Below, in pieces: positions 1 through 25,900 of a stretch of DNA of 25,900 bases. The position numbers were made by a program, and so were the translations under genes. How positions within the stretch are numbered: the stretch's first letter is position 1; every line of letters starts with the position of its first letter. The stretch is from a virus. The notes beneath the pieces were generated by a model that was given only the letters and a program-made list of their open reading frames with translations, searched no databases and was not told the DNA's origin. The stretch is taken from positions 1 through 25,900 of IMG/VR virus record IMGVR_UViG_3300021961_000564; one strand, given 5' to 3'.

Positions 1-82
1 TTTCACAATGAGGAATGAGTTGGTCAAGTAGTTGTTGAATATAATGACCTTCGTTATGAGTTGTGATTGCGAAACTAATCAT
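1..82 (-). CDS. Glycosyltransferase family 2-like protein, N-terminal fragment
   Basis: Only the first 27 codons lie in the window; the gene continues past base 1. The N-terminus reads MISFAITTHNEGHYIQQLLD, which matches the first strand and nucleotide-contacting turn of GT2 (GT-A fold) glycosyltransferases, where a hydrophobic strand is followed by T-x-N-E. The start is set by GGGAGA seven bases upstream, and it overlaps the stop of the UV endonuclease by four bases (ATGA), so the two are translationally coupled. Substrate and linkage cannot be inferred from this fragment. The GT2 assignment is by motif only. Confidence 0.6.
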   Translation of the reverse strand, partial: MISFAITTHNEGHYIQQLLDQLIPHCE

Positions 83-3528: not shown

Positions 3529-3601
3529 TGGCAGGGGTGGGAATTGCACCGCACGATTTCTTGGTTATGAGCCAAGCGAGATACTACTTCTCTACCCTGC
3601 T
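3529..3601 (-). tRNA. tRNA with CAU anticodon, initiator-like
   Basis: Acceptor AGCAGGG/CCCTGCC leaves an unpaired 1-72 position (A1 opposite C72). The D arm GAGAAGTAGTATCTC and anticodon arm CTTGGCTCATAACCAAG resemble bacterial initiator tRNA, though only two of the three usual G-C pairs are present next to the loop. The T arm is irregular (GTGCAATT loop, one stem mismatch). It could be a phage tRNA-fMet or a decaying tRNA. Confidence 0.7.
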
Positions 3602-4378: not shown

Positions 4379-4996
4379 TTACGATTGTATTATGTTCCAA
4401 CTATCTACTAATTGTTGTAATTCTTGGTAATTATCGTATTGCTGTTGATAATTTGAATTTATTGATTTATGTTCCATCGTCATATGTTCTTCTGTAAACT
4501 CTAAATTCGTTACGGAATTTAAATAGTCCACAGTATTATTTTGTAATTCTTCGTAATCTACAACAAATACATTATTATATGTTTGTAACAAATGTCTCTT
4601 CACATCATAAAATAACTGTATCCATTGTTTTTGATTATTATATAATTCAAGTACTTCTGGTGAATTGAGATCTATATGTGTCTGATCGTAGTAGTGAACA
4701 TTATATACACTAGCCATTTGATCTGTTAGATTTTGTCTCTGAGTAATAAAGATATAATCAAATATATCCCAGTCAAATTCAGTTTGGTTTATATACAGAT
4801 CATTATAAAAATATTTAGCAAATAGTTTGATTACATAATCATTATGAGTTTTTAAAAAATTAAAGGTTGCATCTTTGTTTCCGGAAAAGTTTCCATAAAC
4901 CTTTTCACCATGATTAATAATATTAAATTTATTGGATATTATTTGACAAATAAATGTACTACATGTTCTTGGTGTTGAAAATACTGCTATCTTCAT
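4379..4996 (-). CDS. Sulfotransferase-like P-loop protein, paralogue A
   Basis: The 205-residue protein opens with a strand and phosphate-binding loop, VFSTPRTCST (5-14), matching the 5'-phosphosulfate-binding loop of PAPS-dependent sulfotransferases, where P-R-S/T-G-S-T is usual; a Cys replaces the Gly here. FITQRQNLTDQMASVYN (83-99) has the Arg (R87) and Ser (S96) expected of the 3'-phosphate-binding region. The predicted reaction is transfer of sulfate from PAPS to a sugar or other hydroxyl. Its start overlaps the stop of paralogue B by one base (TAATG), so the tandem pair is cotranscribed. The acceptor is unknown, and a related P-loop kinase is not excluded. Confidence 0.7.
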   Translation of the reverse strand: MKIAVFSTPRTCSTFICQIISNKFNIINHGEKVYGNFSGNKDATFNFLKTHNDYVIKLFAKYFYNDLYINQTEFDWDIFDYIFITQRQNLTDQMASVYNVHYYDQTHIDLNSPEVLELYNNQKQWIQLFYDVKRHLLQTYNNVFVVDYEELQNNTVDYLNSVTNLEFTEEHMTMEHKSINSNYQQQYDNYQELQQLVDSWNIIQS

Positions 4997-5625
4997 TATT
5001 CAGTGATTCCCCACGAATCTACAATTTCTTTTAATTGATTATAATTAGTATATTTTAATTTATAATCTATATTTGACTTACGATATTTCGATATAATATT
5101 TTGTTCACTAAAATTTAATTCTGTTACTCTATTCAAATATTCTGTAGTAGAAGTCTGTAGTCTTTCGTATTCCAGTACGAACACATTTTTATGTGTGTTT
5201 AGCAAACTATTTTTTATATTATAAAATAATTGCATGTATCGTTTTTGTCTAGAAAAGCGTTCTAGTATTGTTTTATTTTCTAAATCTATAGTATTAACAT
5301 CAGACAAACGGGCAGTCGCACGAAAATTCCATATATTGTATAAACTTGCCATTTGATCTGATAAATTATTTCGTTGTGTTATAAACACATAATCAAATAT
5401 ATTCCAATCAAATGTCCGAACATCTATGTATTCATCAAAATATCTTGCAAACAATTTGGTTACATAATTTTCAGACTCATATAAAATTTGTGTACGGCCC
5501 TCAACTGGACCTACAAAGTTTCCATATATTTCTTCCTTGTAATTATGTAAATTAAATTTACTTGCCAATATTTCACATACAAATGTACTACATGTTCGTG
5601 GTGTTGAGAATACTGCTATCCTCAT
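4996..5625 (-). CDS. Sulfotransferase-like P-loop protein, paralogue B
   Basis: 209 residues, a clear paralogue of the downstream gene: identical VFSTPRTCST loop (5-14), FITQRNNLSDQMASLYN with R85 and S94, and a shared Y-G-N-F block at 34-37. The two copies diverge along their length, so the duplication is not recent. The start follows the PspC-NTF2 stop directly (TAAATG) with only a weak GGA upstream, implying coupled translation. Expected to use PAPS as donor; the acceptor may be a cell-surface or virion glycan given the sugar genes in the window (inference). Confidence 0.7.
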   Translation of the reverse strand: MRIAVFSTPRTCSTFVCEILASKFNLHNYKEEIYGNFVGPVEGRTQILYESENYVTKLFARYFDEYIDVRTFDWNIFDYVFITQRNNLSDQMASLYNIWNFRATARLSDVNTIDLENKTILERFSRQKRYMQLFYNIKNSLLNTHKNVFVLEYERLQTSTTEYLNRVTELNFSEQNIISKYRKSNIDYKLKYTNYNQLKEIVDSWGITE

Positions 5626-11520: not shown

Positions 11521-11549
11521 AATATAAAACCCTCCACTTAATTTGTCAA
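11521..11549 (-). promoter_or_regulatory. Promoter for the Tyr-Ile-Arg-Cys tRNA cluster, fused to a terminator
   Basis: Minus strand: TTGACA (11549-11544), 17 bases, TATATT (11526-11521). The -35 hexamer covers the hairpin loop and the adjoining stem bases of the overlapping terminator, and the -10 lies in its T-rich tail. Confidence 0.83.
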
Positions 11550-11558
11550 GTGGAGGGT
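11523..11558 (-). terminator. Terminator of the Ig-like lipoprotein gene
   Basis: Eleven-base stem ACCCTCCACTT (11529-11539) with AAGTGGAGGGT (11548-11558), loop of eight. On the minus strand it is followed by TTTATATTT. It ends the Big2 lipoprotein transcript 25 bases after its stop codon. Confidence 0.85.
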
Positions 11559-11582
11559 TCCATATTCTAGAATTCCACTTTA

Positions 11583-16426: not shown

Positions 16427-17125
16427 TTAATAATTTAATTGTTTGAAATCTTCTTCATAATACGCATGTAGTAATTTTTGTATCTCGGTATTATTGAAGT
16501 CTACATTTTGTAGAACATAGTCAAAACTTCTTGGTCTGAGAGAGGTATCTACTTTACATCCTAATCTATTTTCTATAAACTGTGTACATGTAGACAATTC
16601 CTCATATCTAAAAATATAATCACGAACTTCCATTTTGTCAAGATACAGATATTGAGGTAATATAAAAGACCACATAACACAATTTTCTGGATCCATTATT
16701 ATCTTATTATTTATAAAGTTTTTTTGTAAACTTTTTACTAACTCCAACCACAAAAGATCCGATCCATTATAATATGTTTTATAATGAAAATTATCTATTG
16801 ATTTTGATAAATCTACTATTTCTTTTAAAAATTTTATAACTTGATTTGTGTTGGGTGGATTTTCAGGAAAAGTAATACACATTTTACACGAGCAATGATT
16901 AAATACATGATTTAATCCAGAAATAAAACGGGTTATAGGATTACGAACAACAGTAAACCCCGTATATTTTCCGTGCATTTCTACATTTTCTGTGTATGTG
17001 TAGTGATCTTGTCGTTCTTCTGGATTTTCGTGATTGAATAACGCATTACCAATTAATGTTGATGCGGTTTTTGGTATGTTGATCCATAACCACTTTGAGT
17101 TATCTACTTTTGATTCAACCAGCAT
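16427..17125 (-). CDS. Sulfotransferase-family protein, paralogue C
   Basis: 232 residues. WINIPKTASTLIGNALF (14-30) is the 5'-phosphosulfate loop of the Sulfotransfer_2/galactosyl-sulfotransferase type (P-K-x-A-S/T-T). VVRNPITRFISGLNH (59-73) is the 3'-phosphate-binding motif with R61 and S69. NHCSCKMC (76-83) adds a CxCxxC cluster also present in its neighbour, so it may bind zinc. Predicted: sulfate transfer from PAPS to a glycan hydroxyl. There is no signal peptide or membrane anchor, unlike animal Golgi enzymes. It starts one base after the stop of paralogue D, so the two are translated together. Confidence 0.8.
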   Translation of the reverse strand: MLVESKVDNSKWLWINIPKTASTLIGNALFNHENPEERQDHYTYTENVEMHGKYTGFTVVRNPITRFISGLNHVFNHCSCKMCITFPENPPNTNQVIKFLKEIVDLSKSIDNFHYKTYYNGSDLLWLELVKSLQKNFINNKIIMDPENCVMWSFILPQYLYLDKMEVRDYIFRYEELSTCTQFIENRLGCKVDTSLRPRSFDYVLQNVDFNNTEIQKLLHAYYEEDFKQLNY

Positions 17126-17126
17126 A

Positions 17127-17828
17127 TCACAATGAGTAATCGTAATTTATAAAGTCATCTTTGTGTAATTCGTAAATCATATGTCTTAGTGTAGAATTAT
17201 TAAAATCCACATTGACCAATTTATTATCATAGTTTCGATATCTTTCTACAGGTATTTGATACCCCAACTCATATGTTACAAACTTAAAAAATACATCTAA
17301 GTTTTCATATCGAAAAATTCTACCTCGTTGTAAACCATTCAATATATAATTCTGTGGGATGATGAGCGGCCAACGAACACAATTAATATTCACATCTCCG
17401 ATACGAATATTGCGATTAAAATGTTTCTGTATACTTCGTATTACTTCCAAATATAATTTATTTGTAGAATTTTTATATACAGTATCAAAAAAATTATTTT
17501 GTTTATTTTTTAATTTTAACATATCACCCAAGAAAGCAATAACTTCTTCTGTTTTGGGTGGCACAGTTAAATCAAAATTACATCGTTTACATTCACATAC
17601 ACTAAAAATGTGATTTAATCCAGACATAAATCTGTCTATAGGATGTCGTACCATAGTAAAAACATCATACTTATCTTGATATCTGTTGATTAGTTCACGA
17701 TATGTATAATGTTCTTGTGAATTGTAAGGTTTGTCCGGAAATATGGCTTTCATAGTACTAGTTGTGGCTGTTTTTGGAACATTAACCCACAACCAGACTT
17801 TTCCATTTAATTTAGATTTTACTAACAT
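17127..17828 (-). CDS. Sulfotransferase-family protein, paralogue D
   Basis: 233 residues, clearly paralogous to the downstream gene: WLWVNVPKTATTSTMKAIF (12-30), TMVRHPIDRFMSGLNHIF (58-75) with R61 and S69, and VCECKRC (77-83). H40-Y-T-Y is shared with the other copy. The start codon overlaps the HNH stop (ATGTTAG), with no SD of its own. Its role should match paralogue C; two diverged copies suggest two acceptor sites or a heteromer (inference). Confidence 0.8.
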   Translation of the reverse strand: MLVKSKLNGKVWLWVNVPKTATTSTMKAIFPDKPYNSQEHYTYRELINRYQDKYDVFTMVRHPIDRFMSGLNHIFSVCECKRCNFDLTVPPKTEEVIAFLGDMLKLKNKQNNFFDTVYKNSTNKLYLEVIRSIQKHFNRNIRIGDVNINCVRWPLIIPQNYILNGLQRGRIFRYENLDVFFKFVTYELGYQIPVERYRNYDNKLVNVDFNNSTLRHMIYELHKDDFINYDYSL

Positions 17829-19044: not shown

Positions 19045-19308
19045 TTAACCTCGTGCTTTCCATAGTCTGTATTGTTTATCCCACCGTGCTTCAAGAAATT
19101 TTACTTTATTTTTTGATCCGTTTGGATATCCAATTTCTTTCATCATTTCATTGAATTCTATCAGTCGGGCACGTGCATTGAACAGTTGTGCTAAGTTTTT
19201 TGCTTCACAAATTAATTGCTGCACCTTTGTATATTCTGATTCCACAAACTCTTTTTCAGAATCAGTACCAAATATATTGCTGAGATAGTGTTTAATTTCT
19301 TCATACAT
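19045..19308 (-). CDS. Small helical protein next to tmRNA
   Basis: 87 residues. The start is the ATG with GGAG six to nine bases upstream; the longer open frame runs back into tmRNA and is rejected. The protein is charged and alpha-helical throughout, MYEEIKHYLSNIFGTDSEKE at the start and a basic/aromatic end (WDKQYRLWKARG). It is the first protein gene after tmRNA, with 38 bases between, and its stop is one base before the zinc-ribbon start. No family recognised. Confidence 0.78.
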   Translation of the reverse strand: MYEEIKHYLSNIFGTDSEKEFVESEYTKVQQLICEAKNLAQLFNARARLIEFNEMMKEIGYPNGSKNKVKFLEARWDKQYRLWKARG

Positions 19309-19346
19309 TCTTTTCTCCGATAAGATGTAAACACTAACCATTAAAG

Positions 19347-19686
19347 TGGATCCGGCGGGAGTCGAACCCGCGTCCATGATTGCTTCCTACTAAGGATTTA
19401 TGTGCGTAGTTGATTTTGTAATGTTTCTGTGTTTTAAATAATCAACGAACCCACACAGATAAGAGTTTGTAAATTTGATATTGGATACTAACTCCCCTCT
19501 CCAATACTACACCATATACTGTGAACAAGTTAATCTTATATGGGTCAGACTAATCTTGTCAGGCTGCAATTACGCAGCGAGGGCTAGATATTCGTTGCCA
19601 GTTAAATATTTTGGTCTGTTTTACTCGTCTTACCAAACGAGACACAAAGCTTAATCATCCACACCATGTCGAAGCCAGGCGGACCC
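19347..19686 (-). ncRNA. ssrA: tmRNA (transfer-messenger RNA)
   Basis: 340 bases, one-piece form. The 5' end GGGTCCGCCTGGCTTCGACA and 3' end GGACGCGGGTTCGACTCC...GGATCCA form the tRNA-like domain; acceptor GGGTCCG (19686-19680) pairs with CGGATCC (19354-19348) with one G-U, discriminator A, and a canonical T arm. The tag frame at 19599-19570 reads GGC AAC GAA TAT CTA GCC CTC GCT GCG TAA, giving GNEYLALAA, with the degradation signal ALAA intact. The resume codon is inferred from the spacing to the upstream TTTAACT. CCA is not encoded. tmRNA rescues stalled ribosomes and tags the product for proteolysis with SmpB. It has its own promoter at 19712. Confidence 0.95.
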
Positions 19687-19711: not shown

Positions 19712-19740
19712 AATATAAAAAGACCGAATTGATTTGTCAA
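19712..19740 (-). promoter_or_regulatory. Promoter for tmRNA, fused to a terminator
   Basis: Minus strand: TTGACA (19740-19735), 17 bases, TATATT (19717-19712). The -35 lies in the loop of the terminator hairpin 19720-19749. The expected start is near 19705, about 20 bases before mature tmRNA. Confidence 0.83.
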
Positions 19741-19749
19741 GTCGGTCTT
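19714..19749 (-). terminator. Terminator of the UDP-sugar dehydrogenase transcript
   Basis: Eight-base stem AAGACCGA (19720-19727) with TCGGTCTT (19742-19749), loop of 14. On the minus strand it is followed by TTTATATTT. It lies 25 bases after the dehydrogenase stop. Confidence 0.8.
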
Positions 19750-19774: not shown

Positions 19775-20614
19775 TTATACAACTGCTCTACCTTTGTCAT
19801 TTTCCCAATCTTTTTCTGGTCGTACTTCCAAATTTTTACTCCAGACAGCATCAAGTAGTGGTGTTGATTGCCCGTTTGCTTTACCATATTGTATCAGTGC
19901 GTTTAAATCCTTTGGAAAACAAGTACCACCAAATCCAAACTTACCATCATGTCCTGGAACATTCCAGTGCGAAGTACCAAGTCTTGGATCTAGTTTTAAT
20001 ACTTTAGTTAATTGATCAAAATCAGTATCGGTTTTTTTACAAATTTGATATATTTCGTTCAAAAATGCTACTTTGGTAGCTAGCATGGTATTGGCAACAT
20101 ACTTAATCATTTCCGATTGTTTTGCTGTAGTCACCCACACTTGTGAATTCGGAAATCGTTCATAGTATAATTGTGATACAGGTTTTACAGAACGACTGTC
20201 ATCGGTATAACCCAGTGTAATATTAGTTTGTGAAATAAAATCATTAATATAATTTCTTTCTGTCAAAAACTCTGGATTAAAACACACAGTAATATTAGGA
20301 TATCGTTTTGCTAAAAAATCACAGGTTCCTGGAGTAACTGTGGATTTAATAACACATATAGATTTATGTGGTAGTTCTAACAAAGATATTTCTGAAAGCA
20401 CTGTGTCAACGATTTCAATATTACATGCTCCATCTGCATTCATCGGTGTTGGTACACAAATAAAAATAATTTGTGCTTTCTGAGCAACGCCTATAATATC
20501 TTTTTCGGTGCATTCTTTTTGAATATCAAATGTTACTACTTTATTATTTTTTTCAAATCCTGTTTTTACTGCGGTACCTACATATCCTAACCCAACAACA
20601 CCTATTGTATTCAT
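19775..20614 (-). CDS. Short UDP-glucose/GDP-mannose-type dehydrogenase
   Basis: Oxidises a nucleotide sugar to the uronic acid with two NAD+. Residues 4-16 form the Rossmann loop (IGVVGLGYVGTAV), CVPTP (53-57) and STVTPGT (91-97) follow, NPEFLTE (113-119) is conserved, and EMIKYVANTMLATKVAFLNE (168-187) is the catalytic helix with K171 and N175. GFGGTCFPKDLNAL (227-240) holds the catalytic Cys (C232) and K235. At 279 residues it stops just after this domain and lacks the C-terminal domain that binds the nucleotide in typical 390-450-residue enzymes. Catalytic residues are intact, so it may pair with a partner or act on a different substrate. The start overlaps the glycosyltransferase stop (ATGA). 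Confidence 0.85.
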   Translation of the reverse strand: MNTIGVVGLGYVGTAVKTGFEKNNKVVTFDIQKECTEKDIIGVAQKAQIIFICVPTPMNADGACNIEIVDTVLSEISLLELPHKSICVIKSTVTPGTCDFLAKRYPNITVCFNPEFLTERNYINDFISQTNITLGYTDDSRSVKPVSQLYYERFPNSQVWVTTAKQSEMIKYVANTMLATKVAFLNEIYQICKKTDTDFDQLTKVLKLDPRLGTSHWNVPGHDGKFGFGGTCFPKDLNALIQYGKANGQSTPLLDAVWSKNLEVRPEKDWENDKGRAVV

Positions 20615-25489: not shown

Positions 25490-25900
25490 TTAAATATTAT
25501 TTGGTGATGTAGACCATTTAATTGAATTAATAGGTATATGTGTATTTAAATCTAATATATTTTCAACTTCTTGTCTAAATGCGGTGCTACTTGTAAATAC
25601 AATTTTTTTAGATTTATATATCAAAGAATATTTTTCAAGTTGATCCAATATATCTATCTTATTAATAATAAGGTCGGTTACTCCGTTTATGTTTATTGCT
25701 TGGAGTACACCATCCATATCCAACCAACGAACTTGTCTCTTTCTACCTGTGGTGGCTCCAAACTCTTCACCTAAAGTTTGAATTTGATCTAGAGTAGATT
25801 GATCGGAGTCATCATAATTAAATTGTTTAAATCCAGAATAAGTTTCATATGCCTTCATAACTCCATATATTTTACGAATATTTTTGGGTGGTATTCCGTT
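25490..25900 (-). CDS. Adenylosuccinate synthetase, C-terminal part (PurA or PurZ type)
   Basis: The frame is open to the window edge, so 137 C-terminal residues are visible. NGIPPKNIRKIYGVMKAYET matches the GVPP...GVVKAY block; GEEFGATTGRKRQVRWLDMD is the IMP-site loop with both Arg; ININGVTDLIINKIDIL is the following helix and strand (K-I/L-D). After it, only about 45 residues remain, ending IPINSIKWSTSPNNI, instead of the longer insert of typical bacterial PurA. That short form resembles archaeal PurA and phage PurZ, which makes succino-2-aminoadenylate from dGMP for Z-DNA phages. The deciding N-terminal residue lies outside the window. Confidence 0.85.
   Translation of the reverse strand, partial: NGIPPKNIRKIYGVMKAYETYSGFKQFNYDDSDQSTLDQIQTLGEEFGATTGRKRQVRWLDMDGVLQAININGVTDLIINKIDILDQLEKYSLIYKSKKIVFTSSTAFRQEVENILDLNTHIPINSIKWSTSPNNI

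Follow-up and report, generated by a model that had tools for sequence, protein, structure and literature searches.

A predicted stem-loop terminator overlapping a sigma70-type promoter in front of the tmRNA gene of a distant T4-superfamily phage lineage

The PeSL (promoter early stem-loop) cassettes of T4-like phages of the RB49 type were reportedly described by Arbiol et al. in 2010 and Comeau et al. in 2014, and they are said to combine an early promoter and an effective stem-loop terminator with modular shuffling and density in hyperplastic regions. Two other papers present PeSLs as motifs of T4-like phages in which an early promoter and a stem-loop are combined (PMC4503421, PMC3950731), and the former credits them with recombination-based gene shuffling in these phages (PMC4503421); the 2014 PeSL paper is also cited by title in PMC5348500. 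A promoter and inverted-repeat motif of the haloarchaeal virus HGTV-1 is likened to PeSLs in PMC3950731. The terminator-promoter concept is thus not new, the PeSLs of T4-like phages being the same concept.

The window analyzed here is a whole IMG/VR record of 25,900 bases, and a genome-scale count was therefore made on related contigs. The window itself is without T4 core genes, and its assignment to the T4 type comes via a relative, G001. The lineage is placed in the T4 superfamily, on a distant branch, because G001 has a Gp23-type capsid protein (E 4.5e-73) and a gp17-type terminase, the latter with 54% identity to that of Flavobacterium phage immuto and 52% to that of Microcystis phage Mel-JY01; it is distant from the Straboviridae.

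The window carries a tmRNA gene and 27 tRNA genes, the latter all on one strand; ARAGORN found 26 of them and Rfam one more. The additional tRNA, at 3529-3601 on the minus strand, scored 53.8 bits with Rfam and was missed by ARAGORN. There are two tandem pairs of similar proteins, at 4379-5625 and 16427-17828, both on the minus strand; in the second pair, the protein encoded at 16427-17125 has a Sulfotransfer_2 (PF03567) match, which suggests that sulfotransferase-like genes interspersed with the tRNA genes have been duplicated. An adenylosuccinate synthetase-like gene (PF00709) is cut by the window edge (25490-25858, minus strand) and is whole in the relative L043 (9660-10682, plus strand). 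Its PHROG name is '2-aminooxy adenylosuccinate synthetase', in the PurZ group, and a gene of this group may point to 2-aminoadenine (Z) DNA.

Anatomy of the modules

The features of the tmRNA locus and of a second module in the window are as follows.

19712-19749, minus strand: composite module, AAGACCGA-C-TTGA-CAAA-TCAA-T-TCGGTCTT-TT-TATATT, 38 bases
19718-19749, minus strand: hairpin of the module, AAGACCGA C TTGA CAAA TCAA T TCGGTCTT and the initial T residues of the tail
19712-19740, minus strand: sigma70-type promoter TTGACA-17-TATATT, with the -35 at 19740-19735 and the -10 at 19717-19712
19775-20614, minus strand: upstream gene, UDP-glucose dehydrogenase-like, with its stop codon 25 bases before the hairpin
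19346-19686, minus strand: downstream gene, tmRNA with tag GNEYLALAA (ARAGORN; Rfam RF00023, 118.4 bits)
11521-11566, minus strand: second module, long hairpin GGAACCCTCCAC-TTGA-CAAA-TTAA-GTGGAGGGTTTT fused with TTGACA-17-TATATT

The minus-strand letters at 19749-19712 are AAGACCGACTTGACAAATCAATTCGGTCTTTTTATATT. The sequence, the coordinates, the 17-base spacer, the T-rich tail and the location before tmRNA all agree with the original prediction, which had further placed TTGACA in the loop of an 8-base stem. That stem proved to be the lower part of a longer hairpin: at both window modules the fold adds pairing of TTGA, so that at the tmRNA site the -35 TTGA pairs with TCAA as the upper stem and only the CA of the hexamer lies in the loop, the unpaired bases being CAAA. 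The tmRNA-site hairpin has 12 pairs, one mismatch and a CAAA tetraloop, and its fold of -13.7 kcal/mol (z -5.7) was equaled in stability by none of 200 shuffles. Of the 12 consensus positions of a sigma70 promoter, 11 are matched here, the spacer being 17 bases long, and the -10 hexamer doubles as the end of the U-rich tail of the hairpin. The mature tmRNA starts about 25 bases past the -10 hexamer. The start called for a 110-aa ORF at 19045-19377 (minus strand) falls within the 3' end of the tmRNA gene. A later start is likely, and the initial codons of this ORF may be an artefact.

The module at 11521 lies between an Ig-domain (Big_2) ORF upstream and tRNA-Tyr downstream. Here the -35 TTGA pairs with TTAA around a CAAA loop, and the fold (-28.4 kcal/mol, z -7.4) was again matched by none of 200 shuffles. 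As had been proposed, the two modules have a common layout and unrelated stems, and both fold far better than shuffled sequences.

On the minus strand of the window, which is the coding strand, there are seven cases of TTGACA and TATATT separated by 15 to 19 bases, with none on the plus strand and none in the reversed control, and we therefore regard the promoter class as real. Among the 11 minus-strand promoters in the window of the form TTGACA-16..18-TAnnnT, only those at 11521 and 19712 have such a hairpin; the fused form is thus a subset and not the general form of the promoter.

Recurrence and stem covariation among relatives

IMG/VR relatives were found by a composite DNA pattern search and by a dehydrogenase search; neither the locus nor the tmRNA had a DNA match in an annotated phage collection. 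Most relatives have the module at the corresponding position (L008/L110, L010, L021/L100, L022-L026 and L107/L108), and L028/L112 have it there with an unrelated stem, GGGTGACT..AGTCACCC. L109 and L111 retain the promoter, upstream of a tRNA-Val cluster, but lack both a strong stem and a T-run; L106 retains it with only a weak stem remnant, and an ORF follows. For the tmRNA of L107/L108 (2436-2787), ARAGORN gives an improbably long tag peptide, ANIKHNYPTSDLCLFLVKRRMKLNKELCA, and Rfam supports the tmRNA; the tag frame is probably misassigned.

A second conserved fusion site lies between genes for a lipase and an amidase, with a purA/PurZ-type gene after the amidase. In several relatives the promoter at this site is weaker (TTGACT, TACTTT), and in its G001 ortholog the hairpin is weak and partly broken. 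The original prediction had both window modules leading into stable RNA genes, which is correct for these two (tmRNA and tRNA-Tyr) and does not extend to a rule, the amidase/purA-type site leading into mRNA. Specificity of the module for stable RNA genes is ruled out by this operon site and by G002 and G006, in each of which a different small ORF separates the module from tmRNA.

One candidate measure of fusion, base pairs enclosing TTGACA in free folds, was dropped: at least 6 such pairs were found in half of the promoters and in 54% of shuffles. Since this count failed to discriminate, a stable hairpin with a T-rich tail was made the criterion, and a fusion was defined as a terminator-like site that includes TTGAC and has a suitably spaced -10. 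In 423 kb from seven related contigs, 10 of the 74 terminator-like sites are fusions. By comparison, 20 first-order Markov sequences of equal total length gave a mean of 0.1 fusions (maximum 1) and a mean of 23 terminators, and even after correction for the actual surplus of terminators only about 0.3 would be expected. The overlap is therefore far more frequent than the random placement of short promoters after terminators that had been named at the outset as the competing outcome.

In a larger set of 667 kb, consisting of the window phage and ten related contigs, there are 14 fusions among 116 terminator-like sites, but the contigs are related and not independent, so that the tmRNA site is counted several times and the 14 correspond to only about three to four origins. 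The distinct sites are those at tmRNA, amidase and tRNA-Tyr, plus the tmRNA site of G006 with its unrelated stem; G009 and G012, both within this set, are identical in sequence at the amidase site. Each of the 14 fusions follows a long same-strand ORF, 15 to 38 bases after its stop codon. The T content just before the -10 is higher in promoters with a stem than in those without (p 0.003).

In each of the eleven hairpins compared, the dyad is placed at the 3' end of TTGAC. Stems are unrelated among the tmRNA, tRNA-Tyr, amidase and G006 sites, and TTGAC and a -10 hexamer are constant. The lower arms form a mean of 7.5 of 8 pairs with their own partners, compared to 3.3 of 8 with the partners from other sites. 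For five representatives, 39 of 40 pairs form with their own arms, and the actual assignment of arms ranks first among 120 permutations. Covarying arms around a fixed TTGAC and -10 are what the original prediction had expected of such an alignment, here seen over few independent sites. Together, the unrelated stems in one layout, the covarying arms and the large excess over chance bear out its view of a selected design and not a copied element. Within sites, the lower stem at tmRNA is kept or compensated in relatives, with one G-C pair changed to G-U, and the sixth lower pair at the amidase site is T-A, T-G or C-G. These G-U and compensatory changes are more readily reconciled with a hairpin in RNA than with a palindrome in DNA.

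Proposed mechanism and alternative readings

We consider it highly probable that the module is a composite of an intrinsic terminator and a sigma70-type, probably early, promoter that closes one transcription unit and opens the next in the manner of a PeSL. Polymerase from the UDP-glucose dehydrogenase unit would enter the module, the nascent RNA would fold into the hairpin, and the polymerase would be released at the U-rich stretch, the DNA of which includes the -10 hexamer. The double-stranded module would also bind a sigma70-type holoenzyme through TTGACA and TATATT, and a new transcript would begin about 7 bases past the -10, within the tmRNA leader. From this promoter geometry, the hairpin would be present only in RNA derived from upstream and absent from the new transcript. 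Overlap of the two signals would save space and insulate adjacent units. Termination is predicted from the fold and U-rich tail, and it may be leaky, since the distal tail is TATATT and not pure T; the promoter, which resembles the host sigma70 consensus, would presumably be used by the host polymerase, for initiation early in infection. In L109 and L111, the promoter has outlasted the stem. A further version, in which the unrelated stems have independent origins at several sites, with dyads converging on the end of TTGAC, and upstream-coupled promoters tune the tmRNA and amidase units, strikes us as improbable.

The dyad is centered on the -35 region, where operators are commonly found, and the tmRNA-site stem is well conserved among relatives, so it could be asked whether the palindrome is, at the DNA level, the binding site of a repressor dimer that shuts the promoter off. 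However, one repressor would need one operator, and the stems within a single phage are unrelated; the tolerance of G-U pairs keeps the RNA hairpin and not the DNA palindrome, and neither the T-rich tail nor the fixed place after stop codons would be required. We judge this reading very unlikely. Chance overlap in short intergenic gaps might be suspected in a compact phage with many promoters, most of them without a hairpin, but it has against it the excess over random sequence (even after terminator scaling), the constant dyad position in all modules with covarying arms, and the presence of the same layout in KVP40; we regard it as extremely improbable.

The modules might instead be mainly recombination cassettes, short repeated promoter-stem-loops that offer homology for gene swaps, with the transcription signals making the cassette useful. 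This role is the one credited to PeSLs of T4-like phages in the paper noted above (PMC4503421). Module and upstream side are similar in G002 and G001, the similarity ending at the -10, and the small ORFs that follow the module in G002 and G006 could be read in the same way. Yet the stems differ, the modules of one genome having only about 10 to 20 bases in common, most relatives retain the same neighbors, and the few junctions seen are accounted for by simple insertion or deletion. Homology for gene swaps seems to us an unlikely main basis for the module, less remote than an operator; a gene-shuffling role is possible, and it is compatible with, rather than exclusive of, the terminator-promoter reading.

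Comparison with known systems

Sites with and without a stem form a natural comparative set for the purpose of the overlap, be it space, insulation or coupling, and the module offers a simple search rule for the borders of transcription units in phage metagenomes. A scan of Microcystis phage Mel-JY01, by terminase among the nearest cultured relatives, gave no terminator with a promoter nearby. HGTV-1 is a tRNA-rich virus that likewise has a promoter element and an inverted repeat before many genes, but its promoter is of the archaeal TATA-box type.

Our scan of RB49 found seven terminators with a near-consensus promoter 16 to 19 bases after the hairpin and overlap in none of the seven. Like the RB49 PeSLs, the window modules sit between two units and pair a strong sigma70-like promoter with a predicted stem-loop terminator in one short cassette, and they share with PeSLs a T4-like phage background, judged from G001. 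The difference is that the promoter of RB49 lies beyond the hairpin, whereas the -35 of the window module is part of it.

In Vibrio phage KVP40, our scan found seven GGGTTGAC-N4-GTCARCCC hairpins, all on the plus strand; TTGAC is part of the arm, and the T-rich tail is directly followed by a -10 resembling TATTAT. With seven such modules, the overlapping layout is already present in a well-studied phage, and the window modules resemble it in having the -35 within the hairpin and the -10 directly after the T-rich tail. They extend terminator-promoter cassettes from enterobacterial and vibrio T4-like phages to a distant uncultured T4-superfamily lineage, in which the -10 is TATATT with a spacer of 16 to 18 bases, compared to the TATTAT-like -10 of KVP40. 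The KVP40 stem is near-identical at all sites, as if copied, whereas the stems here differ; new in this lineage is a stem that is free to vary around a dyad fixed on the -35 element.
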